Below, piece by piece: positions 7,895-41,335 of a DNA stretch of 43,849 nucleotides. The stretch is from Pirellula staleyi DSM 6068. Its GTDB lineage: Bacteria; Planctomycetota; Planctomycetia; Pirellulales; Pirellulaceae. The DNA is taken from the NCBI GenBank assembly GCA_945900945.1, contig CAMDKL010000032.1, forward strand, positions 1-43,849. The letters are read 5' to 3'. The position numbers and the translations under genes are program-made. How positions within the stretch are numbered: position 1 is the stretch's first letter; the number at the start of each line of letters is the position of its first letter. Below the pieces are notes generated by a model, which did not search any database, was not told the DNA's origin, and worked only from the letters and a program-made list of their open reading frames with translations.

Positions 7895-7897
7895 CGG

Positions 7898-9010: not shown

Positions 9011-9016
9011 CAGCTA

Positions 9017-9208
9017 TCAACGTAACTCGTAATAAATATCCGGTGGCGTGCCAAATTTAGCAGGCAAAGGTATGTTTGACCAAGACTCATTATCCCCAAG
9101 TCGCAATTGCCATCGCCCTTTCGCCCGTCTCGCTCTAAATTGACGGTGTAATCTGCTATACCTGAGCGACCATTCAAGACCTTGCCCCGGATTCGACGAC
9201 CCAGACAT
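9017..9208 (-). pseudogene. Possible 3' remnant of an unknown gene
   Basis: A 63-residue frame ends in a segment with a protein-like look (GDNESWSNIPLPAKF and a PPDIYYEL tail). It has no convincing start or ribosome binding site and would have to continue into the hicB gene on the other strand. I do not recognise the family. It may be the tail of a gene cut by arrival of hicBA, or chance. The 207 bases between 9010 and 9218 otherwise hold nothing I can name. Confidence 0.2.
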
Positions 9209-9217
9209 CGGTTCGAA

Positions 9218-9442: not shown

Positions 9443-9564
9443 AACGTCGTGATCTCATTCGCCATTTGATGGATCAAGGTTGCGAATTGGTTCGGGAAGG
9501 CGGCAATCATTCGTGCACCGCACTGACAGTCCACCTGGCAATCTTTCCATGCCCAACTGCATAG
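9439..9564 (+). pseudogene. hicA: HicA toxin, truncated after about 25 codons
   Basis: Starting at a GTG that overlaps the hicB stop, the frame reads MKRRDLIRHLMDQGCELVRE and then GGNHS, a good match to the HicA N-terminus including the catalytic His of the G-x-H region. Immediately after HS the similarity stops and the frame runs 16 unrelated codons to TAG at 9562. That tail is antisense to the last codons of the WD40 gene 9507-10523, so a recombination joint lies at about 9508-9515. HicA normally has about 60-80 residues; the missing half holds the rest of the double-stranded-RNA-binding-like fold, so the toxin should be inactive. Confidence 0.8.
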
Positions 9565-10523
9565 ATCGAGTCGCCCGATTCATTGACGGCAACGCTGTGG
9601 ATGTGCATGGGTGCCTTTTCGTCGCGGAACGATTTCTTGTTATCAGCAAGGTCAAAGAACATCAGGAACCCGCTGTTATCTCCCCCGGCGGCTACAAGCC
9701 ATTCGCCATTGGGATGAAATGCAAGTGACTCGACTAGCCCCTTGAAGCTATTGTCACCATAGGAATGTGTCCTTTCCCCATCCTGCCACGCGAATATCTC
9801 GACACGTGCCTTGCCGTCGAGATGATCGATGTTTCCGACTTGCCCCATACCGCCAACAGCCAGGTGACGACCGTCGGGCGAGAAAGCAACACTTCGGATT
9901 CCTCCGATCGAATGACGTCGCTGCTTTGCATCCCAAGTGTACATTTCGGAGGCTTCTAACTTAGCGACCTGTCGACCGTCTTCGGATCGCCAAATGAGAA
10001 TCGTTCCAATGCGATCGACAGTGGCAATATGTTGGCTATCGGGAGAAACAGCGCACGCGTAGAGCATGGAGGGATAGTGATGGGGCGTCTCAGTCGGATG
10101 GCCATGAAGCTCGTATCGCAATTTCCCAGATGAACTTTCCCAAACCCGTGCGATCATGTCGTCGCCGACGCTTACGATCCATTTACCATCTGGACTCGCT
10201 TGAACATCGCGAATGAATCGCGGATGCGCGTTATCGACCGTTCGGATTGGCTTGCCAGATTCCATACTCCACCATACGAGTCGCTGGTCGTAACTGGATG
10301 TTACTAGAAATGCTTCAGTTCGAGCGACACCAGTTACATAACTATCGTGTGCTAGGCCCTCTGCAATAGGTTCGCTCTTTTCGTTTGAGAGATCAAAACC
10401 GTAGAGCTTGAAGTCGCTGCTACCAACCTGGAGAAGTTCTGAATTTGGCATTCGAACCATCGAAAAAAGGATATCCCGTCGCGAGATTTCCTTCGTGATT
10501 TTTAGTTCGATCTTTTTTTCCAT
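9507..10523 (-). CDS. WD40 repeat protein, third gene of operon 2
   Basis: A 338-residue beta-propeller with WD40-type blades, for example IRDVQASPDGKWIVSVGDD with IARVWES, an ILIWRSEDG blade and IRSVAFSPDGRHLAVGG. Like its paralogue at 652-1752 it has no signal peptide, transmembrane segment or enzyme domain. It starts 32 bases after the DUF1501 stop; no strong ribosome binding site is visible. Its last codons lie antisense to the hicA remnant, and the natural C-terminus may have been altered when those sequences were joined. A scaffold or sensor role for the DUF1501/DUF1549 pair is inference from its repeated position. Confidence 0.85.
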   Translation of the reverse strand: MEKKIELKITKEISRRDILFSMVRMPNSELLQVGSSDFKLYGFDLSNEKSEPIAEGLAHDSYVTGVARTEAFLVTSSYDQRLVWWSMESGKPIRTVDNAHPRFIRDVQASPDGKWIVSVGDDMIARVWESSSGKLRYELHGHPTETPHHYPSMLYACAVSPDSQHIATVDRIGTILIWRSEDGRQVAKLEASEMYTWDAKQRRHSIGGIRSVAFSPDGRHLAVGGMGQVGNIDHLDGKARVEIFAWQDGERTHSYGDNSFKGLVESLAFHPNGEWLVAAGGDNSGFLMFFDLADNKKSFRDEKAPMHIHSVAVNESGDSIYAVGHGKIARWTVSAVHE

Positions 10524-10555
10524 TTGTGACTCGCTAAAAACAAAATTAGGGCGGA

Positions 10556-11872
10556 CTATCCCAAAATATCGGTGATGATCCGTGTCCCTGGATCGGCAAG
10601 TGGAATAGGACGCGCTCCGTACTGATATTCCTGATGAGGATCAATACCGACGGCTTTAAAAATCGTCGCGAACAAATCGCCTGCCCCCATTTCTCCTTCG
10701 GTTACGGTCTTTCCATCGGGGTCGGTCTTTCCGTAAACGGCGCCCGGACGGATTCCGCATCCCGAAAGAGAACAACTCCAAGCGGTGGCGAAATGGTCTC
10801 TTCCAAGGCTCGCATTAATCTGAGGTGTCCGCCCAAATTCTCCGACAGTGATGACCAACGTATCTTCCAAAAGCCCACGCTCTTGCAGGTCATCGAGGAG
10901 AACACTCATCACATGGTCCAGTTCGGTAACCAGTTCGAGATGCGTCTCGAAGTTCTGACCATGGCTATCCCACCAAGCTCGGGCGACACGGACAAAAGGT
11001 ACACCCGCTTCGACCAATCGTCGTGCGACGAGGCACTGCTCGCCAAATTGAGTAGGTCCATAACGATCGCGTACACTCTGTGATTCGTTATCTATATTGA
11101 ACAGATACTCACTAGACATCAATCCCTTCACGCGTTCATAAGCCGTGTTGTGGCTTTGAACGGTGCTCGCGGTATGGTTGCGAAGAAAGCGTTGGCTGAG
11201 TAGTCTTCGCAAATTTTCACGATCTTGATGATCACCCTCCGCAACTTCATCGAGCCGCCGAAGATCTTGAGGAATGGGATCCTCAAACAGTTGAATCGGT
11301 GCGTAGCGGCTGCCAAGGAAACCCGGACCTCCCAGCGTATTACCGCGTCCCTCCGTCTCCGAATAGAACGCCACAAAGTCGGGCACTTTACTGTCGGCTC
11401 GACCGAGCTCACGCGCAATCATCGCTCCAAGGTCGGGATAAGGAACGGAAGCGTCGGTGCGACGTCCTTTGAGCATCAGTTCGGCTGCCCCGCCATGGTC
11501 ACCGTTGCGTGTATTGAGCGACCGAATAATGGCCGTATGTTGATGCAGTCGCTTTGCCATCTTGGGCATCAGTTCGGAGATATGCACGCCGGGTACCGAA
11601 GTCGGGATGGCTCGAAAAGGCCCACCCGTGTCACGACCTGGTTTTGGGTCCCAAGTTTCCAACTGACTCGCACCACCTGCAAGCCAAAGTAGAATCACTC
11701 TTTTCTGTTCCTGTTTGAGCTGATCCGCAAAAACCGGCTGTGCAAAGCATTCCAGGCCGCTCATGTCGGCACTAAAAGCTCCCGCCGTAATCGCCGACCC
11801 GCCAAGAAATGCTCGCCGACTCAATCCGAGATGATCGGATGAACCACAGTAAGATCGTTTGAATGGTTGCAT
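10556..11872 (-). CDS. DUF1501 protein, Tat-exported, operon 2
   Basis: The 438-residue product shows a twin-arginine signal (LSRRAFLGGSAI), then GGASQLETWDPKP, WWDSHGQN and GEFGRTPQINASLGRDHF, the same landmarks as the DUF1501 protein of operon 1. I start it at ATG 11872 (MQPFKRSY); the frame is open to 11998, but the extra 42 residues have no family similarity and would bury the Tat signal. This leaves 164 bases to the upstream DUF1549/1553 gene. It is expected in the periplasm with that partner; the reaction is unknown. The last residues lie 32 bases upstream of the WD40 start. Confidence 0.9.
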   Translation of the reverse strand: MQPFKRSYCGSSDHLGLSRRAFLGGSAITAGAFSADMSGLECFAQPVFADQLKQEQKRVILLWLAGGASQLETWDPKPGRDTGGPFRAIPTSVPGVHISELMPKMAKRLHQHTAIIRSLNTRNGDHGGAAELMLKGRRTDASVPYPDLGAMIARELGRADSKVPDFVAFYSETEGRGNTLGGPGFLGSRYAPIQLFEDPIPQDLRRLDEVAEGDHQDRENLRRLLSQRFLRNHTASTVQSHNTAYERVKGLMSSEYLFNIDNESQSVRDRYGPTQFGEQCLVARRLVEAGVPFVRVARAWWDSHGQNFETHLELVTELDHVMSVLLDDLQERGLLEDTLVITVGEFGRTPQINASLGRDHFATAWSCSLSGCGIRPGAVYGKTDPDGKTVTEGEMGAGDLFATIFKAVGIDPHQEYQYGARPIPLADPGTRIITDILG

Positions 11873-12036
11873 TTTCAATATCTTTCTAACTTCGGAGCCG
11901 TAGGCACTAGAGTCGGGCAAGGAATCCGGCGATTCGCCAGCGAATTCAGGCCCGGGGCTCGCGCCCACCGGTTCACGAAATCGCACAGTGAGTGCCAATT
12001 CGCAATCGCCGTCGGTTTAAATTGCAAAAGCGTATT

Positions 12037-13671
12037 CTAGTGGTTAAATCGAAACTCTGTACTTGCCAACAAGGACCATACCATTTGCTGGCAGGCTTGC
12101 AGGCGTCGTTCGGAACGGTTTTGTAGGTAACTCAAAATCGCTTTACGTTCAACCGAGTCGGGTGGACGCTGGAGCACCGATTGAAATGCGAGCTCAATAG
12201 CGTTCCCGTCATCCGCGATATGCACAAGACGATCGACTAGCCCTCGCCCGAGCAACTCACTCGTCAATTCCCGATTGTTGTTGAGATAGAGCGCCTCGCT
12301 AACGCTCAGCTGAAGATCTTCACGTGGCATTTCAAACCGCGAACTTAGTCCGCGTCCAGAGTGAGCCGAGTCCTCCAGACGCTTGTTCCGATCTACCAGC
12401 GCGACGTTGTTTCCGATCGATTCCGGATCCAAGGTGGCCACCCTCAAGGAAGCTCCCAGTTGCAATGGAGTGAGCATACGAACGCGACCGATCGCAAACA
12501 GGCTCGCCTCGGGCTTGGTCCCATGACCCTCCCAAGAAGTGTCACGTGAATAGGTTCGACTCATCACTAACCCACGAATCAATCGTCTCAAATCAAAGTC
12601 ATGGGCGATGAGGTCCTCTGCCAGCCGCTCGAGCAGTTCCGGGTGACTAGCAGGATTCTCGCTGTGCATTTGATCCACTGGCATGACGAGTCCATAACCG
12701 AGCAGTCGATACCAGACACGATTCACGATTGATCGAGCAAGCCACGTTCGGCCAACGGGGCTGAGTCCAGATTCAATGATCCTATTTCGGCGGCTATAAA
12801 TTGGCTGTGGAGGTGCCTTCTTTTCTTTTCGCAACTCTTCAAGCTGCTTTTTTTCAGCCTGCTTTTCTTGATCGCTTGGCTCGAGCTGTTCTGGTTCGTC
12901 GAGAACCTCGCCCGTCAAGAAGACGAGTCGGGCGCGACGTTGCTCTCCTTTGGTGGTTACGTAATCTACCGTGCCATACTGACGCTCCGCTACGAATCCA
13001 CCACTTTCAAACGTCCTCGCGAAGAAAGATTTCATTCCGTAGTATTGATCCTGTTTCCAATCGTTGACCAACGGATGATCGTGGCATTGAGCGCAACTGA
13101 TGTTGACGCCAAAGAACCGAACACTGACTTCGTTGGTCATCTTGTCGACATCATTCAACCGCGCCCTGACAAACGAGCCTGCGCCCGCATTTGGATCGTC
13201 GCCTTGTTCCGCCAACATTAAGTCTTTAAAAATCTGGTCCCAAGGGCGATTCTCTGTAACCGCCTTCTTTAGATAATCCCTTAGATTGCCGCGATCAGGG
13301 TACATCAAGAGTGATTCGAGTTCATCCACTTGATGACGCACAAATCCTTCGCTTCCCATTAGACCGTCTACCAACTCCGCCCGCTTGGATTCAGAAACGG
13401 ATGCAAGAAACTCTTGCGTTTCGCATGGGCTGGGAAGCCGACCAATCAAGTCGAGCGTCAGTCGGCGAATCAAGCTGGAATCGATTGCCTGGAAAGCAGG
13501 CTCGACCATGGCTTCTCGAAGACGGACATCGACATAGTGATCGACGACGGTTTCCACCGATGCATCGATTGCAAACTGTCCAAACAAGCTCGTCTGGAAT
13601 ATCCCCCCGGCCAGAAAGACAGCGTGAATGGTCGCCCACCTAACTGAGTTATGCACTCGTTGCATCATCAT
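12037..13671 (-). CDS. DUF1549/DUF1553 protein, first gene of operon 2
   Basis: A 544-residue exported protein: hydrophobic signal segment at about residues 11-31, DUF1549 with LTLDLIGRLP and CAQCHDHP (CAQCH at about 193-197), a Glu/Lys-rich linker around residues 255-290 likely to be helical, and DUF1553 ending in STEFRFNH. As in operon 1, there is no PSCyt1 cytochrome-like domain ahead of DUF1549. Three consecutive ATG codons open the frame, so the exact start is uncertain by two residues. It precedes DUF1501 and WD40 genes on the same strand. The function is unknown; a periplasmic complex with DUF1501 is the usual assumption from gene pairing. Confidence 0.9.
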   Translation of the reverse strand: MMMQRVHNSVRWATIHAVFLAGGIFQTSLFGQFAIDASVETVVDHYVDVRLREAMVEPAFQAIDSSLIRRLTLDLIGRLPSPCETQEFLASVSESKRAELVDGLMGSEGFVRHQVDELESLLMYPDRGNLRDYLKKAVTENRPWDQIFKDLMLAEQGDDPNAGAGSFVRARLNDVDKMTNEVSVRFFGVNISCAQCHDHPLVNDWKQDQYYGMKSFFARTFESGGFVAERQYGTVDYVTTKGEQRRARLVFLTGEVLDEPEQLEPSDQEKQAEKKQLEELRKEKKAPPQPIYSRRNRIIESGLSPVGRTWLARSIVNRVWYRLLGYGLVMPVDQMHSENPASHPELLERLAEDLIAHDFDLRRLIRGLVMSRTYSRDTSWEGHGTKPEASLFAIGRVRMLTPLQLGASLRVATLDPESIGNNVALVDRNKRLEDSAHSGRGLSSRFEMPREDLQLSVSEALYLNNNRELTSELLGRGLVDRLVHIADDGNAIELAFQSVLQRPPDSVERKAILSYLQNRSERRLQACQQMVWSLLASTEFRFNH

Positions 13672-14194
13672 GAGCCTTAGGGCATCCTCAACTTTTTATG
13701 ATCGGAAGGATCGCATTCGATCACGGTTTAAGTGATCAGCGATGTTGGCAGGCATCACAACTCATTCTATTTTATTCAAAGATTACATTGCAAGTGAAAC
13801 CCAGCCGTTTTCGCAAACTAATCGCGATTATTTGCGTCTTTCCCAGTGAAGAAAGCCAAGAGTTTTTTAAATTGCAGCTAGAACAGTGAATTCCGTCTTC
13901 TCGCCGTTTGCGGAGTTGAAGCAACAGGCTGAAGCGATGGCAGCGTACGCCAGTACGATGGACCGCGACTACGATGGAGCTGAAGGGATCTCGTTTCCGC
14001 TTTCAACACCAAAACTCAAAAACATACGACTCGACGGGAATCGCTCGGTAAATTGCGGATCGTTGCGCCCATTCTCAAATTCCATTAGTGTATATTAGAA
14101 AATTCACTGGCAGGAACTCCACGTGTTCAATGGAACTTTCGGACAATCTCCCGAACTTGCGAACGTCGTTCCTGGGAACTTTTGGAGGTAGAAC
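13672..14194. other. Divergent intergenic region between operon 2 and the plus-strand operon
   Basis: This 523-base gap separates the start of the minus-strand DUF1549/1553 gene from the plus-strand DUF1501 gene and must hold promoters for both directions. A short inverted pair GATCAC/GTGATC lies near 13720-13737. A frame of about 70 codons at 13886-14098 has no ribosome binding site or family similarity. I see no RNA gene or repeat with confidence. Confidence 0.5.
14184..14188 (+). promoter_or_regulatory. Strong ribosome binding site GGAGG for the DUF1501 gene
   Basis: GGAGG lies six bases before ATG 14195, the best Shine-Dalgarno match among the genes in this window, and it fixes that start. 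Most neighbours have only weak or partial matches. Confidence 0.8.
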
Positions 14195-15577
14195 ATGGGT
14201 CGATTGCAGCGACGAAGTTTCCTGGGGTTGGGAGTCGCCGGAGGACTTAATTTGTTTCCCGTTCATCCAGATGCTGCATTGGGGTCGGTTGGGAATGGGC
14301 GCGCAAAAAATGTATTGGTGATCTTGGAGCAGGGTGGTTTGTCGCATATGGACACATGGGATCCAAAGCCTGATGCGCCTGCCGATCATAGAAGTATCTA
14401 CAAACCCATATCAACCAACGTTGCGGGAATGCAGTTTACGGAACTGCTTTCTAAAACGGCTAAGGTTGCGGACAAACTGACTGTGATTCGATCAATGCAC
14501 CACAAAGTCAGCAACGCCAACGGTCATCCACAAGGCACGCGTTATGCCCTGTCCGGGGAAGTCCCGGGAGGTCCACTTGAAATGCCAGATATCGGTTCCG
14601 TTGTCGCTCACAACATAGGTTCCAGCTGTAACTATCTTCCGCCGTACATTATGATTCCGGGAAATCATGAACAGGCCAAAGAGACGAGTCAAGGATTCCT
14701 GCGGGCATCGACCAAAGTCTTCAAGACTGGCGGTAAAAATTTGGCAGACCCGAATTGGACTGTCCACAATCTGGGGCTGATGGCTGGAATCGATCAATCG
14801 CGTTTTAATGATCGTCGCGACTTGCTGAGCAATCTAAATTTAGGGATGGCCGCTGAACAAAACACGACAGCGTATGCCCTCCAGCAGCTCGGTACTCAAG
14901 CTGCCGATTTGCTCACAAATCCCAGAACACAAAAAGCGTTTCGGCTCAACGACGAACCCGATTCGATTCGTGATAAATATGGTCGGGGCCATCGCGGGCA
15001 GTGCTATCTTCTCGGCCGACGAATGATTGAAGCGGGTGTACGTTTCGTTACGGTCGACGTTCGCGAACCTGAAACCGATCAGACGCCGGGTGGTTCGAAT
15101 ATGAATTGGGATCACCACGATTACATCTACGCAAACGGTTCCTGTGGTACGATTCGCAACGGTGCTGGGGGAGAAGGTCGCTTCGGTATTGGACACTGGG
15201 TTATGATGGGTAGTACCGATCAGGCCTTTGCCGCACTGATTCAGGACCTCGATGAACGTGGGATGCTGGATGAGACTCTCGTCTGTTTCGTAACCGAATT
15301 CGGTCGGACGCCTAGAATGAATTTCTTTCAAGGACGGGACCATTGGACTCACGGTTATTCCATTGTGATGGCCGGTGCAGGTGTCCCCGGAGGGCAAGTA
15401 GTTGGATCGACCGATCGCGAGGGTGGATATGTTCAAGATCGCCCTTACACGCCTGAAGATTATGCGGCTACGATTTATGAAAAGCTTGGTATCGATCGAT
15501 CAAAGCCGCTCTTCACACCAAGCAATCGCCCTGTTTTCGTCGCTCACCACGCTACCCCCATTTCGGAAGTTTTCTAG
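14195..15577 (+). CDS. DUF1501 protein, Tat-exported, first gene of operon 3
   Basis: This 460-residue protein has a twin-arginine-type start (LQRRSFLGLGVAGG) and DUF1501 landmarks EQGGLSHMDTWDPKP and TEFGRTPRMNFFQGRDHW. It differs from the two minus-strand copies: the middle motif reads NWDHHDYIYANG instead of WDTHGxN, and there is a longer region before it, so it belongs to another DUF1501 subgroup. It heads a different gene order: DUF1501, a PPC-domain protein, a long DUF1549/1553 protein. The next start is 11 bases downstream. Expected location is the periplasm; function unknown. Confidence 0.92.
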   Translation: MGRLQRRSFLGLGVAGGLNLFPVHPDAALGSVGNGRAKNVLVILEQGGLSHMDTWDPKPDAPADHRSIYKPISTNVAGMQFTELLSKTAKVADKLTVIRSMHHKVSNANGHPQGTRYALSGEVPGGPLEMPDIGSVVAHNIGSSCNYLPPYIMIPGNHEQAKETSQGFLRASTKVFKTGGKNLADPNWTVHNLGLMAGIDQSRFNDRRDLLSNLNLGMAAEQNTTAYALQQLGTQAADLLTNPRTQKAFRLNDEPDSIRDKYGRGHRGQCYLLGRRMIEAGVRFVTVDVREPETDQTPGGSNMNWDHHDYIYANGSCGTIRNGAGGEGRFGIGHWVMMGSTDQAFAALIQDLDERGMLDETLVCFVTEFGRTPRMNFFQGRDHWTHGYSIVMAGAGVPGGQVVGSTDREGGYVQDRPYTPEDYAATIYEKLGIDRSKPLFTPSNRPVFVAHHATPISEVF

Positions 15578-15587
15578 TGCGTATGCC

Positions 15588-17963
15588 ATGAATCCAATGA
15601 CCTCCAATTACCGTTGGTCGATCGTGATTGCCTTAGTGATGTACAGCACAGGGCTCTCGAATCCTCCTGAGATAACCTTTACCTCTCCGTTGGCAGTGGC
15701 GCCGGGACAGACCACCGTTCTCCATTTTTATGGCAAAAACCTTGATGGCGCTACACACGCTTGGACCGGTTTCCCCGCAGAAACAACGTTCCTTTCTCCG
15801 GAGGAGGCGTCGGATAACAAATCCACACGTGCCTCGGTAGGAGTCGCAGGCGACGTTCCTGTCGGTATCTATGCGGCTCGTATAGCCACCTCCGAAGGGG
15901 TCTCCCAAGCGATTCTAATGATGGTTGACGACCTGCCTAGTATCGGTGAAGAGCCTCAAAATCATAGTCGTAAAATGGCACAACCTGTTCATCCTCCCAT
16001 TTCAGTCGACGGCGCGGGCGACGGCGACAAAATCGATTGTTTTTGTGTAGATGCGTCTGCTGGCCAATGGCTAACCATCGAAGTTGTATCATCACGTCTG
16101 GGCTATTCGCTCGATGCTTTTCTTCGAGTGTTTGACGAAAGCGGAGAAGAAATTGCAACCGTTGATGATACTCCTGGTTTAAGCGGGGATTGTCGCGTTC
16201 GTTTTCAATCGCCGCTCAAACAGCGTATATTCATCGAGGTCTGCGATTCGTCTTATTCGAGCAGTGCTCGACATCAGTACCGATTGCGAATCGGCGATTT
16301 TCCGAGTGTAACGACTACGTTTCCTCTCGCCTGTACCATTGGCGAGAAAGGAAGTTCGTCTTTTGAAAAAATCGATTTTAAGCTTGGGTTCTGTAGCGAT
16401 GATGGTGCAATTGTCCCGCCAACGAGCCTTAAGGTCGCCGGACTTGCTGAGTCTTTATCGATTCCCATTGCAGCCCGATTCAGCGACCGAGGTGGAGCGG
16501 CAATAGTGAGGCATGCGGTCAGTTCGTTGCCAAATCTAAACTTGGAGGGATCCGAACCCAATGATTGCAAGGAACGAGCGTGGGTCCTCAAAGCGCCTGT
16601 TGCCATCGACGGTGTTATCCTCGGCGCTAGCGACACGTTTTACTATCGAATCCCATTGACGGCTGGTTCTCGCCGAACAATCCGCAGCATTACGCGGAGC
16701 TTGGGCTCGCCTTCCGACTTATTGATGAAGGTGTACGCACCCGACGGAACTCTCCTTGCAACGTACGACGACTCTGGGTTGGACGATGCGACTTTTGAAC
16801 TGGATGCGAAAATCGATGGGGACTACCTGCTAACCGTTCACGAAATCAACAGACAATATGGTCCTGGATATTCGTTCCGATTCGAAGTTAGTTCATCACA
16901 GGACGGATTTGAATTATCTGCGAAGGAGGAGAGAGTGAATATCGGGAAAGGAGGCGTCGGACTGCTTCCCATTGTCTGCAAGCGGAAAGGATTCAAGGGG
17001 CCAATTGAATTGCGAATCGATGACCCTGACACGCCCTTTCGATTAGAAAATAACGTAATCAACGCAGCAGAAAATGAGACGTTGCTAAAACTTTTTTCTC
17101 GCGTGGATTTGCCCTTGGGAAGTTTGAACACCATTCAAATTACAGGCTATGGCGGCAACGATGGAACGATAGTCATGGGGAAAGTCAGCGTCGTGGATAA
17201 AATCCGCACTCAATTCCCATCCATGGCATATCCGCCGGTGGAATTGTGGAATCAAATCGCTGTGGCCATAGCACAACCTCTTCCCGATTTTTTTGGGCTG
17301 CGATTGGCCAGTGACGAAGCCCTCTTCCCGCGTGTTGTGGGCGAGATGTATTTCACTGTGTACTGCGTCAACCGTATCGAAGGCTACACGGCTGCGATCC
17401 ATGTCGAGGCAATGAATCTTCCGAACGGCTTCCGTACATCCGGCCAAGATAAACCTGTTGGGAATAGCAAGAACAATGAATACCGCTTTGAACTTCGCGG
17501 TCCTGCTGACGCCCCAATTGGCCAGCACAAGATCTCAGTACGCGCGATTGGCGATTTTCGAGGCCAGGCAAAAGAGGTAGTAATCAGCGATGTTCCATTT
17601 CTTGTGGTGGATCCGCTCAAGGTCTCGTTGGAGTCATCAACCGAAGACTCGAAGCGAAGCGAGGTTTCTGTTCGCGTCCATGCAAAGCGTTATTTGAGTC
17701 GTGCTGGTGGCGACCAAAAAGAGATACATTGCCGCTGGAAAGAACGCCCGGATTGGCTTGTCTGCCCCGATTCTTTCGTGATTGATGCGGGCAAGAAAGA
17801 AGCGACCATTCGAATGTCTGTGACTGAGAACATTGACTTGCCTGCTCAGATCGGAAAACTTGTACTAATAGCCGAAACATCGATCCTGGGAAAAACGGTC
17901 CAAGTGGAGAGCGACGCTTTTGAAGTTCGATATCCGGTTCCAGACAAATCGCAAAAGGATTAG
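15588..17963 (+). CDS. Large exported protein with pre-peptidase C-terminal (PPC) domains
   Basis: From ATG 15588 (or 15597) the product is about 790 residues with a signal peptide (WSIVIALVMYSTGLS). After a beta-rich region, two segments look like bacterial pre-peptidase C-terminal domains: one beginning VDGAGDGDKIDCFCVDASAG with DAFLRVFDESG, and a second beginning EPNDCKERAW with LLMKVYAPDGTLLATYDDSG. The remainder is beta-sandwich-like with no catalytic motif. Planctomycetes often place such proteins between DUF1501 and PSCyt1-DUF1549 genes. An in-frame open stretch runs back to 15402 inside the DUF1501 gene but is simply unblocked sequence. The next gene starts six bases after the stop. 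It is probably a periplasmic or surface binding partner; no substrate is evident. Confidence 0.8.
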   Translation: MNPMTSNYRWSIVIALVMYSTGLSNPPEITFTSPLAVAPGQTTVLHFYGKNLDGATHAWTGFPAETTFLSPEEASDNKSTRASVGVAGDVPVGIYAARIATSEGVSQAILMMVDDLPSIGEEPQNHSRKMAQPVHPPISVDGAGDGDKIDCFCVDASAGQWLTIEVVSSRLGYSLDAFLRVFDESGEEIATVDDTPGLSGDCRVRFQSPLKQRIFIEVCDSSYSSSARHQYRLRIGDFPSVTTTFPLACTIGEKGSSSFEKIDFKLGFCSDDGAIVPPTSLKVAGLAESLSIPIAARFSDRGGAAIVRHAVSSLPNLNLEGSEPNDCKERAWVLKAPVAIDGVILGASDTFYYRIPLTAGSRRTIRSITRSLGSPSDLLMKVYAPDGTLLATYDDSGLDDATFELDAKIDGDYLLTVHEINRQYGPGYSFRFEVSSSQDGFELSAKEERVNIGKGGVGLLPIVCKRKGFKGPIELRIDDPDTPFRLENNVINAAENETLLKLFSRVDLPLGSLNTIQITGYGGNDGTIVMGKVSVVDKIRTQFPSMAYPPVELWNQIAVAIAQPLPDFFGLRLASDEALFPRVVGEMYFTVYCVNRIEGYTAAIHVEAMNLPNGFRTSGQDKPVGNSKNNEYRFELRGPADAPIGQHKISVRAIGDFRGQAKEVVISDVPFLVVDPLKVSLESSTEDSKRSEVSVRVHAKRYLSRAGGDQKEIHCRWKERPDWLVCPDSFVIDAGKKEATIRMSVTENIDLPAQIGKLVLIAETSILGKTVQVESDAFEVRYPVPDKSQKD

Positions 17964-17969
17964 TCATTC

Positions 17970-20204
17970 ATGAATCTCTCTCTATCTCGTTTCAATGTTG
18001 GTTCCAAGCTGCGTTTGGTCTCTGACTGCAGATTGCTCTTCACCGGGTTGCTCTTGGTTTTTCCAGGCCGATCGCTAGTGACTGCCGATGAGTCTGCCCC
18101 GGTCTCTCTGGATGCAGGACCTTCGTTTTACCACGAAATTATTCCCGCGCTTTCCAGGTTGGGTTGTAGTTCCGGTGCCTGCCACGGCTCGCCCAATGGT
18201 AAGAATGGGTTCCGACTGAGCCTACGCGGATACGATGCCAAAGCAGATATCCAATCGATCGTCCGAGATGAGTTGGGACGACGGGTGAATGTCATGTCGC
18301 CGGAAATTAGTCTCTTATTGAGTAAGCCCATGATGCATATTCATCATGGCGGCGGTAAAAAACTTAGACTATCGGATCCAGAATACGAAATCCTCAGAAA
18401 CTGGCTTTCCCGAGGGTGCCAGGTTGCAGAGCCTGCTTCGGCGTGTACCGGTATTCGTTTCGGACCATCGGATCAGTTGTTGCTATCACCAGAAAACAGT
18501 CAGCAGAAATTGACCGTATGGGCTGTTTTCGCTGATGGAACCCAGAAGGATGTCTCGACGCTGGCCGTGTATTCCAGTTCGGATTTGTTGGTGGCAACCG
18601 TCAACGATCACGGTTGCGTAGAAGGGGTTGGCCGAGGCCAAGCAGGTATTAGCGCTCGATTTCTCGAACACTGGAGCACGCTCTTCGTCACCTATGCCCC
18701 GGGTGAGAAAACACCGTTCAAACCTAGGTTGCAACAACAAAACGTCGTGGACGAATTAGTCGGCCAGCAGTTGGAACAACTCCATTTCGAACCCTCCATT
18801 CTATGCAGCGATGAACAATTCGTTCGGCGCGTTTATTTGGATGTCATCGGTCTGTTGCCAACAGTCCTAGAGGTCCATTCCTTTCTTACCGACCAAGATG
18901 CCCACAAACGGGAAAAACTGATCAACTCGCTGATCGATCGTCCAGAATTCGGGCGGTTTTGGGCTCTGAAATGGGGGGATCTGTTGCGAATCAATAAGCA
19001 ACAAGTTAGTTCAACTGGCGTGCAAAAATATAACCGCTGGCTAGTGAAGGCTATTGACGAAAATATGCCGTATGACAAATTCGTCAAAGAGCTTTTGTTA
19101 TCGCAGGGAAGCACTTTCGAAAATCCACCTGCCAACTATTACCGCACTGCAAACAACCTCAACGATGCGACCGAAACGACTGCACAGATCTTTTCAGGAG
19201 CGAGATTGGAATGTTGTAAGTGCCACAATCATCCGTTTGAGAAGTGGACACAAGACAACTATTACGGATTTGCGGCTTTCTTCAATCGGATGCAGCGTAA
19301 GCCGACTCGACGTGTCGATGAGATGGTAATTTGGAACTCTGATGAGGGTGAGGTCGTTCACCCTCGGACAAATCAGCAAATGCACCCCTGGTTGCCAGGC
19401 GTTGGAATCGTGAACGACGAATCGTCAGGTAACCGTCGGATAACGCTAGTGAATTGGTTGACTTCGAAGGACAACGAACTGTTTGCATCTGTCGAAGTCA
19501 ATCGGATTTGGAGTCACGTCATGGGGCGAGGGATCGTCGAGCCAGTAGATGATTTCCGAGACTCCAATCCACCAAGCAATCCCAAGTTACTTGCGACTCT
19601 TGCTGCGGATTTTCGCGAACACGAATTCGATCGCAAACGAACTCTGCGACTAATCTTGAACAGCCAAACCTATCAGTCCAGCTCTACTGCGACGGATGGA
19701 AACCGAAACGACGATAAGTACTTCTCGCATTATCGTCCCCGTCTACTGACAGCGGAGCAGTTGTTGGATGCCGTAGGTGCCATCACCGAGCAGCCTGAGC
19801 AATTCCGTGGGTTGCCTGCGGGAACACGAGCCACACAGCTCCCAAGTCCCGATCTAAGCAGCGAGTTCCTGGAAGTCTTCGGGCAACCAAAGCGGGATAC
19901 TGTCTGTCAATGCGAGCGAGTCACCGAGGTCACCCTGTCGCAAGCCTTGCAAATCGCGAACGGCAAGTTGCTGCAGGAAAAATTAACTTCACCAGACAGC
20001 CGGTTGCAACGATTTCTCAAATCCGAATACACTGACCGACAGATCATCGATGAGTTGTTTCTAGCGGCCTACGCTCGAAATCCCAGCGAACAGGAGTATC
20101 TAGCCATCTCCTCCCATTTTGCGAAACGGAACGATCGAGAATTAGCGCTGCAGGATTTGACCTGGGCTCTCATCAATTCGAATGAGTTCTTGATGCAGCA
20201 CTAG
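17970..20204 (+). CDS. PSCyt1-like/Big2/DUF1549/DUF1553 protein
   Basis: The 744-residue protein has a signal segment (about residues 20-38), then a cytochrome-like N-terminal domain with GCSSGACHGSPNGKNGF, where the spacing is C-x4-CH rather than the usual C-x2-CH. A bacterial Ig-like (Big2) domain follows at about 178-232 (LTVWAVFADGTQKDVS, ATVNDHGCVEGVGRGQA). DUF1549 has VYLDVIGLLP and CCKCHNHPFEKW at 415 onward, and DUF1553 ends in SNEFLMQH. It starts six bases after the PPC gene and is clearly co-transcribed with it and DUF1501. The two other family members in the window lack the first two domains. The role in electron transfer or polymer binding is unproven. Confidence 0.9.
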   Translation: MNLSLSRFNVGSKLRLVSDCRLLFTGLLLVFPGRSLVTADESAPVSLDAGPSFYHEIIPALSRLGCSSGACHGSPNGKNGFRLSLRGYDAKADIQSIVRDELGRRVNVMSPEISLLLSKPMMHIHHGGGKKLRLSDPEYEILRNWLSRGCQVAEPASACTGIRFGPSDQLLLSPENSQQKLTVWAVFADGTQKDVSTLAVYSSSDLLVATVNDHGCVEGVGRGQAGISARFLEHWSTLFVTYAPGEKTPFKPRLQQQNVVDELVGQQLEQLHFEPSILCSDEQFVRRVYLDVIGLLPTVLEVHSFLTDQDAHKREKLINSLIDRPEFGRFWALKWGDLLRINKQQVSSTGVQKYNRWLVKAIDENMPYDKFVKELLLSQGSTFENPPANYYRTANNLNDATETTAQIFSGARLECCKCHNHPFEKWTQDNYYGFAAFFNRMQRKPTRRVDEMVIWNSDEGEVVHPRTNQQMHPWLPGVGIVNDESSGNRRITLVNWLTSKDNELFASVEVNRIWSHVMGRGIVEPVDDFRDSNPPSNPKLLATLAADFREHEFDRKRTLRLILNSQTYQSSSTATDGNRNDDKYFSHYRPRLLTAEQLLDAVGAITEQPEQFRGLPAGTRATQLPSPDLSSEFLEVFGQPKRDTVCQCERVTEVTLSQALQIANGKLLQEKLTSPDSRLQRFLKSEYTDRQIIDELFLAAYARNPSEQEYLAISSHFAKRNDRELALQDLTWALINSNEFLMQH

Positions 20205-20429
20205 CAGTCACTCTTGAACATCAGTCGAGGCAGTCTGGGGAATTGAGAGAAACTGCGCATCTTTCGAGATTTGGGTTGCCTGTTGAATTCAAAAACGACC
20301 GATAACGAATCGGCGAGCTTGAATCTTTCGGCAGGAAGCCGATTCTAGGTTCGTGATGCGGTTCGAATGCCAAAGACAATTTGAAGTGCATGCATTTCGA
20401 TAATTGTGATGCGAAGGGAATCTCATCCA

Positions 20430-21900
20430 ATGAAAAGGGTCGCTCTACCTACATTGCTGATTTGTTCGCTCAGTAGTGTTTTCGGATGTGAATCCTCGTC
20501 TCCGTATCGGGTCAGTCTCGCTCCGTATGCACCGGATGCAGGCCACCACGGTCTCTACCTGTTTCGCATTCCAGTCTCTGTGCTACCTGGCCGAGAAATC
20601 ACCGAAGAGTACAGCGCCGTGCCCATTCTGTTACAGCGCCGTGCCCCCCCTGCGAGCCCAGTTACAAGTCGACCAGGCTCATCTGCCAAGCACATTTCCC
20701 AAGATGCTCATCGCCGATCTAGTCGAGGCTCTAACACCGAGAATCCTAGCTGATTGGAACGACGCAAAAGAGCAACGCAAAACGATTGCAAAACTCGTCA
20801 AAGATCAAGGTGGAGTAGAAAAACTTTCGGCGACGCAACTGAGAGCATTGGCAGCCTCCTCGTATTCAAAAAAATTGCTATTCTAAAAGCTGGAAACCCT
20901 TTAAAGCGAATTAAGGCGTCGAGCAATGCCACGCGTTCAATCGCTTCGATACCATCTTCGGTCCCTTAGGTTTCCCACTCTAATATCTATGGTGATGACG
21001 CCATCGCACGCTTGTGGACAATGCAATTGAGCAGTTCGAGTCATTGCCGACAGCCTTTGTGCTGGATCAGCCCAAGGCGGAGGAGATCAGGCAGTTCTTG
21101 TTCGCAACCCTTGAACAAACCCATAACTCGCTTCAAGAGAATCAAATCTACGACACGAACATCCATACGATTGCAAGCGCCGCAGATAGCTTTGGGAAAC
21201 GATCATCCGCCAAACGTTTCCGCTGCAAGTTTTCAATTTGGAACCAATCGCCGAACAACAGATCGCAGGCAAGAACTTCCACCCAACTCTGACCCACGTC
21301 GTAGTTGGAGGCACCGAACAGCACCTTAGCATAACAAACGAGCCAGCCATCGACGTCATCAGTCGAGAGTTGATCCGCGTTCGCGTTGGGAAGCTGAACG
21401 AATCGCTTTCGGATCCGGGGCACTTTGAGGTACGGGTTGCAACCCCAGTCGGTATGTCCAATCCGCTGGTGATCGACAAGCGAATCGCCATCAAGTCAAG
21501 CTATCCCTATGTCCAAACCGACGGGTATGCTACATTCACACTCGAACGCCAGAGAACGGATGCTAACAAAATAATAACTACTGAGTCGCTTGGGACAACG
21601 CCGTCGAAGATACCGTTCAGGGGTCTGCGGCTGGACATCGCGGATTTCACCAATGCCATTCGGCCTTTGATCGAAGTCCGAAACGACTTCCAAGCTGGCG
21701 ACATTATCGTGGCGAAAGGAAGCCTCGAGTTCATCAATCCGTCGCAACCGCGAGTCGACATGACGACGACCGTCAAGATCAGGGTGGATATAAATCGGTG
21801 CGCAACCGTTCGCTTGCCCCAAGGAAGAGCCAATGAACCCACAAAATCTAACTTCCTTGATTGTCTGCATTGCCTTTTTTTTCGCGAGCATTTCCGTTGA
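20430..21900 (+). pseudogene. Broken lipoprotein gene with several frame breaks
   Basis: The frame begins MKRVALPTLLICSLSSVFGC, a lipoprotein signal with a VFGC lipobox. Coding sense then continues across at least four frames: to about 20610 in the first; RILADWNDAKEQRKTIAKL to 20886 in the second; LPTAFVLDQPKAEEIRQFLF from 21014 in a third; and IAEQQIAGKNFHPTL to about 21830 again in the second. The last part contains an Ig-like (IPT/TIG-type) segment with GHFEVRVATPVGMSNPLVI. The first break equals a 22-base tandem duplication; others look like single-base indels near 20990-21010 and 21190. The protein is not one I recognise. It lies between the DUF1549/1553 gene and the CRTAC1-like gene, so it was probably an operon member. 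The 225 bases before it (20205-20429) hold no gene. Confidence 0.65.
20610..20646 (+). repeat. 22-base tandem duplication that shifts the reading frame
   Basis: TACAGCGCCGTGCCC occurs at 20610-20624 and again at 20632-20646, an offset of 22 bases. Because 22 is not a multiple of three, one extra copy moves the frame by one. Removing it joins the lipoprotein start directly to the downstream frame as EEYSAVPPLRAQLQVDQ without a stop, so this is the likely inactivating event. Confidence 0.8.
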
Positions 21901-32462: not shown

Positions 32463-32723
32463 AAAGGAGAGGGAGGCAGCCATGAAGCACCACACGTCCA
32501 AAACTTTATCGATTGCATCAAGTCGCGTGAGAAGCCTTACTGCGACCTAGAGACGGTTGGGCATCCTGTATCGGTTCTTTGTCACGCTGGCAATATCGCC
32601 CCGCGAGTTGGTCGCAAGCTGACCTTAGAGTCGTCCACCGAGACCTTCGTCGGCGATGCCGAGGCAAACGCTCTTCGGGGACGTCCTGAGTATCGCAAAC
32701 CTTGGATCTTGCCCGAAGTTTGA
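32463..32723 (+). pseudogene. C-terminal fragment of a Gfo/Idh/MocA oxidoreductase
   Basis: The frame encodes HVQNFIDCIKSREKPYCDLE, GHPVSVLCHAGNIAPRVGRK, VGDAEANALRGRPEYRKPW and ends at TGA. This is the characteristic tail of planctomycete Gfo/Idh/MocA oxidoreductases, about 85 of some 430 residues. The open frame continues upstream to 32271 but with repetitive Lys/Gly-rich sequence unrelated to the family. No other part of the gene was found nearby. Confidence 0.8.
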
Positions 32724-33804: not shown

Positions 33805-34164
33805 TCAATCAGCTTCGACGACAAAGGAGTTGTCGCCTTCTTTGACGGTAAACTTCTTGGAAACGGAATTGCCCTTAATCACGCTAGGCAACTCATTTCC
33901 GTAGGATGGTTCAACGGTCACAGAATATTCGCCAGCGGGAGCACCTGGCTTGCTTGCGTCACTGTTGCGTGAAACATAGTGCGTCGTCAGTGAAAAGCTG
34001 CCATCTTTTTGAATCTCTCCCGTTGCCTTAAGCGTAGGATCTTGATCAAGTTGAAATATAATAATGCCGCCCGACCAAGCCTTTCCGCCTTTCTTGACTA
34101 CTTTTCCAGATACAGGATGAGTAGTCGGCGAATATCCACAGCTGAATTCGTTGACTCGCGTGTC
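33805..34164 (-). pseudogene. Small carboxypeptidase-regulatory-like lipoprotein, 5' end lost, copy 2
   Basis: From Cys (codon ending at 34140) the frame reads CGYSPTTHPVSGKVVKKGGK, SGGIIIFQLDQDP, GEIQKDGSFSLTTHYVS, APAGEYSVTVEPSYG and a C-terminal KKFTVKEGDNSFVVEAD, about 111 residues. This is the common planctomycete lipoprotein of the form GC-x-PVSGKV. The residues before the Cys (RVNEFS) are not a signal peptide, and an in-frame TAG lies at 34165-34167 with no start codon between. So the mature part is intact but the export signal and start have been lost. Copy 1 lies 1.6 kb away in the opposite orientation. Confidence 0.75.
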
Positions 34165-37097: not shown

Positions 37098-37284
37098 GAC
37101 CTGTGCTGCGACTTTTCAGTAGCTCGACCGCTTTGAGGAATTCGAAGTTGATCCTGCGTTGGCATCCAGTTTGTGCGGAAACCGTCTTTCCCGGCTTGTA
37201 AATGAACGCCAGCCACGGGATAATGATGCATTCCCTTTTCACGCATTGGCCTTGATCGCCGTCTCTTTACGGCAAAGCCGGAAT

Positions 37285-38778
37285 ATGGCCGTCCCCCTCG
37301 ACAAATTCGCGAAGCAGCTTGAAGACAGCGGGATTCTCGCTGGCGACACGATCAAGGACTTTATCCCGCCTAACGTGACGAAAGATGCTACTGCGATTGC
37401 CCGCTTTGAACGAGAGGTCACGGCAGCCGCCAAACTGCGTCATCCTAATAGCGTTGCCGCCGATGACGCCGACTGTGCCAATGGCGTCCAGTTCCTCGTC
37501 ATGGAAATGGTCGAAGGAAGTGCCCCATCCGCATTGGTCAAGAGGAACGGCCCGTTCTACGTAGAGGAGGCCGTCAACTACGTTCTGCAAGCGTCCAAGG
37601 GATTGGAATTCGCTCACAAGAAGGGCGTCGTCCATCGAGACATTAAACCAGCCAATCTGCTGCTGGATACAGAGGGGACGGTCGATTACATGGCCCCTGA
37701 GCAAGCCCTGAATACCAAAACGATGACGGAAGTGATTGCTGAACTTGAGCGATGTACGGCGGGTCCGACCACGGCTATGAGCTTCCAGCAATCGGCAACC
37801 ACTGCCTCAAACGAACGCACATTGGTCTTTCCCACGCAATCGCTTGAAGTGCCGACCATTCCGGTCGATCCCGGCAAGCATCGGCTCAAGGTCGAGAAAG
37901 AAGGCTTCACCATTTTCGGGCAGGACTTCGAGATGAAGTCTGGTGACAAGACGCCGATCAAGGCGAAACTCGTGCCGCTGGAAGAGAAGCCAGCGATGGT
38001 GGAGACGAGGCCTGCTCCGGTGGTTGACGGCGTGATCGAGCCCAGGACCGGCTGGCAGGGCTGGCCCACCGACGCCCCGCCACCCGCCATCGCCCCCTTC
38101 GATGCCGCGCAGGCGAAGAAACATCAGGAAGCCTGGGCCAGGCACCTGGGTGTGCCAGTCGAGTACACCAACAGCATCGGGATGAAGTTCATGCTCATCT
38201 CGACGGGCGAGTTCACGATGGGAAGCACGTCGGCCGAGATCGAAGCGGCTCTCGTCGTCACCGCTGGAGACGAGTACTGGAACGAGCGCATTCGCAGTGC
38301 CGCCCCACAGCACAAGTTGATTCTGTCGCAACCGATCTATTTCGGTGTCCATGAAGTCACGCAAAGGGACTACGAGGCCATGATGGGGAAGAATCCGTCT
38401 CACTTTGCCCCGATGGGCACCGGCTATCGGATGCCGACCGAAGCGGAATGGGAGTACGCCTGCAGGGCGGGAACGACAACGAAATACTGGCTTGGCGACA
38501 AAGATGATCAACTCATTACGGTCTACTGGTCCGCCTTGAACTCGGGGGGACGCACGCACGCAGTGGGAGCGTTAAAGGAGAATCCATTTGGACTCTTTGA
38601 CATCCACGGCAACGTGTGGGAATGGGTGCAGGATTGGTGGGAACCGAATTCCTACACACGGTTTCAGGGGAAGCCCGCTTTAGCCGAAATTCTCCCGCCC
38701 CTGACCCCTGAAAATCCCCTTGCGACTCCTCACTCTCCTCCTCTCGCCATTGAAAAACGACAGCACTCGTTTTCCTAA
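37285..38778 (+). pseudogene. Ser/Thr kinase-PEGA-FGE gene reduced by several in-frame deletions
   Basis: The 497-codon frame is open, but each domain is incomplete compared with full-length planctomycete proteins of this type. After MAVPLDKFAKQLEDSG the frame jumps at DFIPP (37366-37371) to NVTKDATAIARFEREV, losing the Gly-rich loop and VAIK. HRDIKPANLLLDTEGTV (37675-37683) joins directly to DYMAPEQ, losing DFG. NTKT (37717-37722) joins to MTEVIAELERC, losing the C-lobe. The transmembrane part before IPVDPGKHRLKVEKEG (PEGA-like) is absent. The FGE domain begins NSIGMKFMLISTGEFTMGS, skips its middle at MGTGYRMPTEAEW (38416-38424) and stops after VWEWVQDWWEP. No catalytic centre is complete. 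The open frame starts earlier (37159) but the family start is ATG 37285. It may be transcribed with the sulfatase two bases downstream. Confidence 0.7.
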
Positions 38779-38779
38779 A

Positions 38780-40081
38780 ATGACATCATCTGTACTGCAG
38801 CTCACGATCAGCGCCGCAATGACCTTTGCCATTGCTTCCGCCCAAAGCGCCGAACCCGCGCAGCGGCCACCCAATATCATCGTCATTCTGGCAGACGATC
38901 TCGGTTGCGGAGACCTGAGCCTTTACAAGGGCTGGGTCAAGACCCCGCGGATCGATCGGATGGCCATGGAAGGAATGACATTTACCGACTTTCACTCCAA
39001 CTCGTCGGTGTGCAGTCCCACGCGCACCGCCTTCCTCACCGGGCGCTATCAACAACGCGTTGGCATTGTCGATGTGATCGTGGGCAGGAACGAACCTGAT
39101 ACGGGGATTCCCCCGGCGACGCCGACCCTTTCGCGGGTCTTCCAAAAAAGCGGATACGCGACCGCCCTGTTCGGCAAATGGCATTGCGGTTACGAGCCAA
39201 GGTTCAATCCTCGCCATCTCGGTTTCGATGAATTCGTGGGCTTCCTGCATGGCGGCGGTGGTTACCACAGTCCCAATTTCTGGCGTGATGGGCTGCAGCC
39301 TCTTTCTTTGCAGGGCTATTCAACGGACATTATCACTGATCGAAGCCTCGACTTCATCAGGCGACACCAAGACAAGCCGTTCTTTCTCTACGTAGCACAT
39401 CAGGCGGTTCACAATCCCTATCAGACCCGTGATGATACGCCGGACGAGCGTGAGCCGGGATGGAATCAAAACGCGGTGAACGATGTCAACCGGCCTCGCT
39501 ACAAGAAGATCGTCGAGGATTTGGACCAAAGTGTCGGCAGAATCCTCGACACCGTCAGCGAGTTGGGACTCGCGCAAGACACACTGGTGTTCTTCTGGTC
39601 GGACAATGGCGACGTGCGGATGTGCCCAGATGAAGTGCGGCCGTATCGCGGCGGCAAGTTTAGCCACTTCGAGGGCGGGCACCGGGTGCCGGCCGTGGCC
39701 TGGTGGCCGGGCAAGATCAAGGCGGGCGCGCAGTCGGATGCCTTGCTCGCCGGGTTCGATCTATTCCCAACACTGACCGATCTCGCCGGCATCTCAAAGG
39801 ACAACCCAGCCAACCTCGATGGCAGCAGCGCCAAGGATCACTTTCTCCAGCAGAAACCCATGGCAGATCGTGACCTCTTCTTCGGCTACGAACCCAAACT
39901 AGGCACCGCAATGCGTCGTGGCCATTGGAAAATGATCATCAAGGGCGACGACCTACAGCTTTACAGCCTGAAGAATGATCTAAAGGAAACCACCAATGTC
40001 GCCGCTCAAAACCCCGAGATCACCGCCCCCATGCGACGCGCCATCGAACAATTCAAACAGACGGTGATCCCGGGCTCATAA
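38780..40081 (+). CDS. Arylsulfatase-type sulfatase
   Basis: The 433-residue protein has a signal peptide (LTISAAMTFAIASAQSAEP) and a complete sulfatase core: NIIVILADDLG with metal-binding Asp39/40, the formylglycine signature CSPTRTAFLTGR with Cys78, GKWHCGYEP, FFLYVAHQAVHNP and FFWSDNGD. Cys78 must be oxidised to formylglycine by an FGE enzyme before the protein is active. I chose ATG 38780, one base after the kinase-FGE stop; an in-frame ATG at 38720 overlaps that gene. It lies next to an FGE-domain gene that is itself defective, so maturation would depend on an FGE elsewhere. The substrate is unknown; such enzymes remove sulfate from algal polysaccharides in planctomycetes. Confidence 0.9.
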   Translation: MTSSVLQLTISAAMTFAIASAQSAEPAQRPPNIIVILADDLGCGDLSLYKGWVKTPRIDRMAMEGMTFTDFHSNSSVCSPTRTAFLTGRYQQRVGIVDVIVGRNEPDTGIPPATPTLSRVFQKSGYATALFGKWHCGYEPRFNPRHLGFDEFVGFLHGGGGYHSPNFWRDGLQPLSLQGYSTDIITDRSLDFIRRHQDKPFFLYVAHQAVHNPYQTRDDTPDEREPGWNQNAVNDVNRPRYKKIVEDLDQSVGRILDTVSELGLAQDTLVFFWSDNGDVRMCPDEVRPYRGGKFSHFEGGHRVPAVAWWPGKIKAGAQSDALLAGFDLFPTLTDLAGISKDNPANLDGSSAKDHFLQQKPMADRDLFFGYEPKLGTAMRRGHWKMIIKGDDLQLYSLKNDLKETTNVAAQNPEITAPMRRAIEQFKQTVIPGS

Positions 40082-40142
40082 TGCGACTTGGATGTGGCAA
40101 CATCGGCGCCAAACCGGAAACCTTCCTGGCAAACAAGCAACT

Positions 40143-41335
40143 ATGAAAACGCTCTCACTGGTTCTCCATTTGTCGTTCATCATTTTGGTTTCGTCAGCGT
40201 CGGCGAAGCCGAACGTCCTCTTCATCATCTCCGATGATCTGACAGACACCGCACTCGGCTGCTACGGCAACAAGGTCTCCCAGACACCGAACATCGACCG
40301 CCGGGCCTCACGCGGGATGCGTTTCACGCGGGCGTATTGCCAGGCCAGCTACTGCGGGCCGTCGAGGGCCTCATTCCTTTCCGGCTACTATCCCCATGCG
40401 ACGGGTGTGCAGGGTTACATCAGCCCACGTGCGGCGATTGGTGATCGTGCGACATGGCCGCAGCATTTCAAAAACGCGGGCTATTACTCTGCTCGCGTGA
40501 GCAAAATCTTCCACATGGGAGTGCCCGGCGGCATTGAGAATGGTGGCGACGGGACGTTCGTGTCGGCGAACGACATGCAAGCCAATCGTTGCTTCCTCTA
40601 CCACTTGATTGGCAACGGCACAGGACAATGGCGCGTGCCGCAGGGCGGAATGGGAGCGCTGGTCAGAGAGCTGTATCGCATCGCCACGCTCCACGGTGTG
40701 GAGATTAAAACCCAATCCAAAGTCTCCGTGTTGGAAAGTGGTCCGGCTGGTGTTCGCCTCGAAACGGAATCCGGCGAGACCTACACCGCCAAGGATCTCC
40801 TCTTTGCTGCCGCGCCGCAGCTTCTGGCTCGCTTGCTCGGGCGGGCCGTTCCGGAGTCTCTTGAGGTAGCACAATTGAAAATCAACATGCTCCTGTCCCG
40901 ACTGCCGCGTCTGAAGTCAGGCGTTGACCCGCGGCTCGCCTTTGCCGGCACCTTTCATATCAATGAAAGCTATATCCAATGGGAAGCCGCCTACGCTCGG
41001 GCTCGCGGCGGCGAGATGCCACAGCCGTTGCCGTTGGAGATGTATTGTCACACTCTGACCGATCCCTCGATTTTGTCAGCGGAGTTGATCGCCAAGGGTT
41101 TTCATACCCTCACGATCTGGAAAAAGACATCTCCCTACCGCGTGGAAACATTTTCCACCGTTACTTGGATTTCCCGTTCCTGGACGACCACGACAGTGGA
41201 GCGAGTCCGCAACTCTGGGTCGATGAAACCGATGATCCGCATATTTACCTCGCCGGCGCAGGAGCCCGACGCGGTGGCGGAGTCAGCGGCATCGCTGGGC
41301 ACAATTCCGCTATGGCACTTTTAACAAAGGAATAA
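40143..41335 (+). pseudogene. Chimera: 5' sulfatase fragment fused to PYROXD2-like oxidoreductase 3' part
   Basis: Codons 1-138 are an iduronate-sulfatase-like start: signal peptide, PNVLFIISDDLTDTALGCYG and YCGPSRASFLSGYYPHATG with the CxPSR signature. At about 40548-40556 (codons for Asp-Gly-Thr) the frame passes into FVSANDMQANRCFLYHLIG, WRVPQGGMGALVRELYRIA and later sequence typical of the C-terminal half of phytoene-desaturase-like/PYROXD2 FAD oxidoreductases. That part breaks again near 41105-41120: HTLTIW is followed, one frame over, by DLEKDISLPRGNIFHRYLDF and AGAGARRGGGVSGIAGHNS, ending at 41335, while the fusion frame itself ends at 41324. Both parent genes are incomplete (no sulfatase C-terminus, no FAD-binding N-terminus), so neither activity should remain. 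A CDS caller would report a single 393-residue sulfatase-like protein. Confidence 0.75.

Follow-up and report, generated by a model that had tools for sequence, protein, structure and literature searches.

A probable young deletion pseudogene derived from a kinase-PEGA-FGE gene, with five internal deletions that keep the reading frame, in Pirellula staleyi DSM 6068

The closest described counterparts of the locus analysed here are planctomycete Ser/Thr kinase-PEGA-FGE proteins (L017, L018 and L020), in which the same pieces occur in the same order. Compared with the full-length proteins, the locus lacks the Gly loop, the VAIK motif, the DFG-equivalent and the C-lobe of the kinase, the membrane helix, the first part of the PEGA domain and the middle and end of the FGE domain, and its remaining pieces are approximately 40-65% identical to L017, L018, L020 and L050. 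A second point of comparison is the decay of bacterial pseudogenes. In the portion of the Salmonella survey on which we draw, 346 of 378 pseudogenes carry one inactivating lesion and short deletions form the largest class among these single-lesion cases (141 of 346); the decay described consists mainly of single lesions, short deletions and stops (Kuo and Ochman, 2010; PMC2916853). The locus resembles the pseudogenes described in that portion in that an inactive gene shrinks mainly by deletion, and differs from them in having at least six larger lesions, the internal five of which are all in frame.

The remnant and its joints

The window, a 43,849-nt stretch of contig CAMDKL010000032.1, contains on its plus strand an open reading frame that starts with ATG at 37285 and ends with TAA at 38776-38778. 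As an earlier note on this DNA had read from the sequence, the frame 37285-38778 is open over 497 codons without a stop. The note had also taken the parent to be a full-length kinase-PEGA-FGE gene shortened by deletion, and this was borne out by tblastn, which placed the pieces of the remnant in full-length order with the joints as gaps between them (95 loci, including 79 from named genomes; reading frames were displayed for 16 of these loci). The features are collected in Table 1.

Table 1. Features of the remnant and its surroundings (positions in the window)
Feature	Position	Strand	Evidence or content
Retained 5' leader of the former kinase gene	37147-37284	+	Alignable to the upstream region of the L036 homologue from 37147
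N-terminal pre-kinase piece, residues 1-29	37285-37371	+	tblastn, 44-77% vs L036, L046, L047 and others
Joint 1 (PP)	37366-37371	+	~222 nt absent, including Gly loop and VAIK
Kinase piece, residues 30-133, through and beyond the catalytic loop	37372-37683	+	Pfam Pkinase 42-136/263, 63.8 bits
Joint 2 (GTV)	37675-37683	+	~96 nt absent, including the DFG-equivalent DMGLAR
Joint 3 (K/T)	37717-37722	+	~219 nt absent: kinase C-lobe
Joint 4 (T-I)	37855-37860	+	~237-249 nt absent: membrane helix and first part of PEGA; L049 and L017 only
Second part of PEGA domain	37864-37977	+	Pfam PEGA 29-69/71, below cut-off
N-terminal FGE piece, ~residues 265-380	38077-38424	+	tblastn, L050 63% and others
Joint 5 (GTG)	38416-38424	+	~159 nt absent: FGE middle
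FGE piece	38425-38678	+	Profile positions 109-197/255, the best stretch
Joint 6 and tail	38679-38778	+	FGE C-terminus absent; ORF continues out of phase into the sulfatase leader
Sulfatase 1, intact and immediately following the remnant	38720-40081	+	Start TTG 38720 or ATG 38780
Second remnant	40143-41323	+	Sulfatase 2 N-terminus and middle of CrtO-like oxidoreductase, joined in frame near 40550

The Hanks-type kinase domain (PF00069) lost its Gly-rich loop and VAIK lysine at joint 1 and, at joints 2 and 3, its metal-binding DFG motif and its C-lobe; the HRD catalytic loop is kept (VHRDIKPAN). The FGE-sulfatase domain (PF03781) scores above its cut-off but is incomplete, with its middle and end absent, and the PEGA domain (PF08308) reaches 17.4 bits against a cut-off of 20.8. 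The list of lost motifs in the earlier note was thus correct for the Gly loop, VAIK, the DFG-equivalent, the C-lobe, the membrane helix and the FGE core, while the HRDIKPAN of the catalytic loop is still present. A product without kinase or FGE core, and hence non-catalytic, had been proposed, and the motifs concerned do fall in the gaps.

All five internal joints had been placed correctly (P28-P29, G131-V133, K145/T146, T191-I192 and G378-G380), and the corresponding gaps of approximately 222, 96, 219, 237 and 159 nt were in frame, as claimed. Compared with intact homologues, approximately 930 nt are absent over the five gaps, in addition to the 3' end. In a first count of gaps of 20-1500 nt in plus-strand matches, which included overlapping loci and own-genome paralogues, the missing length was 219-222 nt at joint 1 (12 loci), 75-144 nt at joint 2 (75 loci, a multiple of three in 74), 219-267 nt at joint 3 (6 loci), 237 and 249 nt at joint 4 (2 loci) and 27-900 nt at joint 5 (40 loci, with 159 nt as the commonest value). 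A stricter recount on both strands, with duplicates removed and near-zero gaps permitted, found a real gap in 13 of 14, 82 of 86, 4 of 7, 2 of 5 and 45 of 54 loci for joints 1 to 5, respectively, with gaps of 57 nt or more at joint 5. Inspection of 19 of the 20 remaining cases revealed shifted or gapped alignments rather than the joints of the window, L070 excepted. A sixth lesion, absent from the earlier note, removed the C-terminal end of the FGE domain: homology to FGE extends to about 38678 (38695 in one relative), and the last ~20 codons of the frame are the sulfatase leader read in another frame.

Whether short homologies lie at the joints was analyzed per relative by comparing the two sites to be joined with equally spaced sites elsewhere in that gene, overlapping loci included. 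The best 9-nt agreement was 6.64 against a control value of 3.56 at joint 2 (median p 0.026, top 25 of 74 loci), 5.75 against 3.66 at joint 1 (median p 0.11, 12 loci) and 5.50 against 3.34 at joint 4 (p 0.10, 2 loci). Agreement was not above control at joint 3 (4.33 against 3.76, p 0.44, 6 loci) or joint 5 (4.60 against 3.84, p 0.59, top 25 of 37 loci), and repeat use at all five joints was therefore rejected. The shared stretches are 9 nt or less. The proposal that the same residues flank the joints accordingly holds clearly for GTV at joint 2 and fairly well for PP at joint 1 and I/CCATT at joint 4, and is not above control for GTG at joint 5; of the KT named for joint 3 the T is shared and the K is not. 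Taken together, direct repeats are well supported at one joint, plausible at two and not shown at two.

Upstream of the remnant, leader DNA from 37169 shows 85% identity with the region 5' of the L036 homologue. Over 37169-37375, the leader and first codons, the same DNA identity with L036, another planctomycete MAG, was observed, and the kinase pieces are only 62% identical to L036 at the protein level. From the sequence comparison, this contrast makes a mosaic origin possible. A promoter-like site at 37196-37224 in the leader is no better than chance.

Neighbouring genes and the phase of repeats

Sulfatase 1, behind the remnant, shares 84% DNA identity with its counterpart in the same-genus genome G025, matches the Pfam Sulfatase domain over its full length (1-301/301) and is constrained (Ka/Ks 0.11 versus G025). 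From 38720 onwards the homology to G025 is clear, at 6.6 sd above shuffles, and the 120 nt before 38720 show no clear homology to G025 (1.4 sd), making the former upstream region unrecognisable. The ends of reading frames and the next starts almost abut (38778/38780, 40081/40092 and 41324/41344). Two promoter-like sites were found against 2.3 expected, which is at chance level.

The frame of the second remnant spans 40092-41324, with a likely start at 40143. Its N-terminal part matches sulfatase 2 of G025, in which sulfatases 1 and 2 are both intact and adjacent, and from approximately 40550 it corresponds to residues 213 to ~405 of a CrtO-like oxidoreductase. At the cut-offs used, none of the other 26 genomes of the genus gave a match to this oxidoreductase, and 24 of 239 other genomes of the family did. 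Near 41110-41140 the second remnant bears a 175-nt out-of-frame deletion relative to all four references, and it is open to its end even past this frameshift. Because of this deletion, the frame is not always kept here, and deletions of such size are not confined to multiples of three.

With a naive chance of 1/3 per deletion, five in-frame deletions would be expected in 0.4% of cases (1 in 243). This expectation changes when the phase of direct repeats is considered. Among 18 stretches from relatives, with the leucine-rich part left out, the in-frame share of direct repeats 60-300 nt apart was 49.7% for a minimum length of 5 bp (n = 7832), 53.1% for 6 bp, 59.6% for 7 bp, 62.1% for 8 bp and 70.0% for 9 bp (n = 50); it was 43-53% in 11 other genes of the window and 43-56% within the remnant itself (5 to 8 bp). 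For a remnant that was picked for having stayed open, the probability that five of five deletions keep the frame is then ~0.03-0.17 with the repeat phase of the relatives and 0.015-0.04 with ordinary window-gene values. When both remnants were pooled, six of seven joints kept the frame, an outcome that, or a better one, has p 0.06-0.33 at 0.5-0.7 per joint. The suggestion that a special deletion process with selection was needed to keep the frame is not supported by these results, since codon-phased repeats raise the chance to ~3-17% and a deletion in the adjacent remnant breaks the frame. At joints 3 and 5, where repeats are not above control, the phase argument leans on the assumed mechanism.

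Relatives, age and predicted product

The short layout was not found in 26 other genomes of the genus or in 240 other genomes of the family (6 candidates scored per genome); 4 and 10 of these, respectively, matched, with parts of the query inside long reading frames. Joint 5 is spanned by 11 of the 13 family loci L148-L160, and all 11 carry 10-53 extra residues there. A probe of 60 residues across joints 2 and 3 (at most 16 candidates scored per genome, overlapping samples) matched in 20 of 395 other genomes of the order and 1 of 391 other genomes of the phylum. In the six probe matches examined (the five that extend beyond residue 34 of the probe, and a sixth) the short joint 2 was absent, all having 30-32 extra residues; none of the other listed matches extends beyond residue 34. 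A separate family for which the short layout is the normal form, raised as an alternative in the earlier note, was thus not encountered among the genus, family, order and phylum genomes searched, and was rejected, with all examined probe matches being full length at joint 2. A viral copy was likewise rejected after a scan of viral contigs gave no match.

A kinase-FGE gene with a different in-frame internal FGE deletion inside an open frame was found in another planctomycete MAG (L070; REEF01001063, 940-2592). Judged from its sequence, such a deletion is not unique to the gene in the window, although L070 shows a single one, which may have arisen in the assembly of that MAG. In the genome of the window, further short FGE and kinase fragments were observed on contigs C158, C41, C189 and C53 (G000; L171, L172, L173 and L169), and two of the three FGE fragments hold a stop. 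In the homologue at L181 (G280, contig C58) the N-terminal and kinase pieces lie in different frames, and this gene may also be decaying. Elsewhere in the window, 32487-32705 holds a C-terminal Gfo/Idh/MocA oxidoreductase fragment (PF19051, 182-252/254) with its N-terminal part absent, and 34000-34140 and 20228-20500 are repeated DNA, with a 95% match on C53 and an 88% match on C248 of the same genome. Region 600-20500 has few matches in the genus, so that deletions there were judged by domain completeness only.

Since the kinase remnant has no close relative for Ka/Ks, its age was taken from the sulfatase-2 core of its neighbour (114 codons, synonymous sites saturated). The pN of this core was 0.117 versus G025 and 0.123 versus G019 (G009 gave the same values), compared with 0.129 between the intact genes of G025 and G019; for the whole sulfatase-2 fragment pN was 0.149 versus G025. 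Sulfatase 2 was therefore probably functional until recently, and a recent loss would explain the absence of stops in the kinase remnant: in simulations, 477 codons stayed free of stops in 63-38% of cases at 0.01-0.02 neutral substitutions per site and in 9% at 5%.

Conservation was assessed at near-invariant columns, with the window's own copy left out. In the kinase piece, 3 of 35 columns conserved at 95% are changed (D80A, L81P and A104S), a score reached by none of 67 homologues, and so are 4 of 44 columns at the 90% level, reached by 2 of 67. With looser relatives 2 of 33 columns were changed, 19 of 87 homologues were as high and the signal was gone. Two of 21 conserved columns were changed in the N-terminal FGE piece, which is not extreme (12 of 61 homologues as high), and none of 14 near-invariant columns in the C-terminal one. 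These counts hint at lost constraint in the kinase piece and not in the FGE pieces.

AlphaFold models made with the same 19-sequence alignment had a mean pLDDT of 49.4 for the remnant and 73.1 for the full-length control L018, with 282 of 497 and 180 of 843 residues under 50, respectively. The kinase part of the remnant is mostly below 60, compared with mostly 80-95 for the kinase lobes of L018, and residues ~191-230 and 261-350 (the PEGA and N-terminal FGE parts) reach 63-85. According to these models, the PEGA and N-terminal FGE pieces may fold locally and the kinase and C-terminal FGE pieces appear to regain no confident fold; the product, if made, should form neither a kinase nor a complete FGE domain.

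Origin of the open remnant

We consider the remnant to be a young deletion pseudogene, with a probability of roughly two in three. A large kinase-PEGA-FGE gene was probably acquired from outside, because the search of the other genus genomes revealed no such gene close by. Its function would have been lost first, before the deletions, after which at least five internal segments of ~0.1-0.24 kb and the 3' end would have been deleted, partly between short direct repeats and presumably by slippage or end joining. For the kinase gene itself, recency is something we infer. The frame would have survived because the repeats are mostly codon-phased, the deletions were few and the time was too short for stops. 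Five large deletions unaccompanied by any small frameshift or nonsense mutation are tidier than the Salmonella pseudogene decay described in the portion of the survey cited above, which speaks against this reading, as does the 1.5-4% chance of five in-frame deletions if the bias of ordinary genes applies. A selected non-catalytic mini-protein built from the surviving pieces would account for the 497 open codons, the 14 of 14 unchanged near-invariant columns of the C-terminal FGE piece and the moderate confidence with which the PEGA and N-terminal FGE pieces are modelled. We regard it as very improbable, given that the short form was not found in the genomes searched, that more than half of the residues (282 of 497) fall below a pLDDT of 50, that conserved kinase positions are changed and that the tail of the frame reads the leader of another gene.

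Selection might instead have acted on translation through the remnant and not on its product, with frame-breaking deletions purged and the protein itself useless, which we think unlikely. Sulfatase 1 would then be transcribed from the kept kinase leader, stops would cause Rho-type polarity and only in-frame deletions would survive, a scheme to which we give little credence; in a similarly doubtful extension, both remnants would serve as read-through, linking a captured promoter to genes further downstream whose own promoters were lost. The retained leader is consistent with such a scheme, as are the constrained sulfatase 1 (Ka/Ks 0.11) that adjoins the remnant and whose own former upstream region is unrecognisable, the nearly abutting reading frames and the second remnant being open past its frameshift. 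However, the scheme is itself one that we infer, with promoter-like sites at chance level; a promoter for sulfatase 1 may lie within the remnant, one of the gaps may be ~60 nt if the second remnant starts at 40143 instead of 40092, and short stretches of coding sequence with such a composition can lack stops by chance. Improbable to a like degree is an artefact of assembly or gap closing, in which a real full-length gene had short stretches dropped at short overlaps. The genome is a draft of 313 contigs, and the internal deletions of both remnants lie in a narrow range (~96-240 nt), as a gap closer might leave. On the other hand, alignment to genus relatives gives a single match for each of four neighbouring genes, and most other genes of the window have complete Pfam domains, the partial ones being two PSD1 domains and one ceramidase match. 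There is also no near-identical copy to merge, since the 37 other matches in the own genome are all at or below 56% protein identity; the FGE end and the sulfatase-2/CrtO joint are not simple dropped gaps, and the stretches shared at the joints are only 9 nt or less.

If maintenance of translation through the remnant proved to be true, the locus would offer a natural test of whether operon polarity shapes the decay of pseudogenes. As a young deletion pseudogene, the remnant is of an ordinary kind, a gene that decayed recently, and its set of in-frame deletions, though unusually tidy, can be explained by repeat phase, chance and youth. Because the direct repeats that could guide deletions in these codon-biased genes are in frame in half to two thirds of cases, reading frames that stay open across multiple deletions should not be taken for selected proteins.
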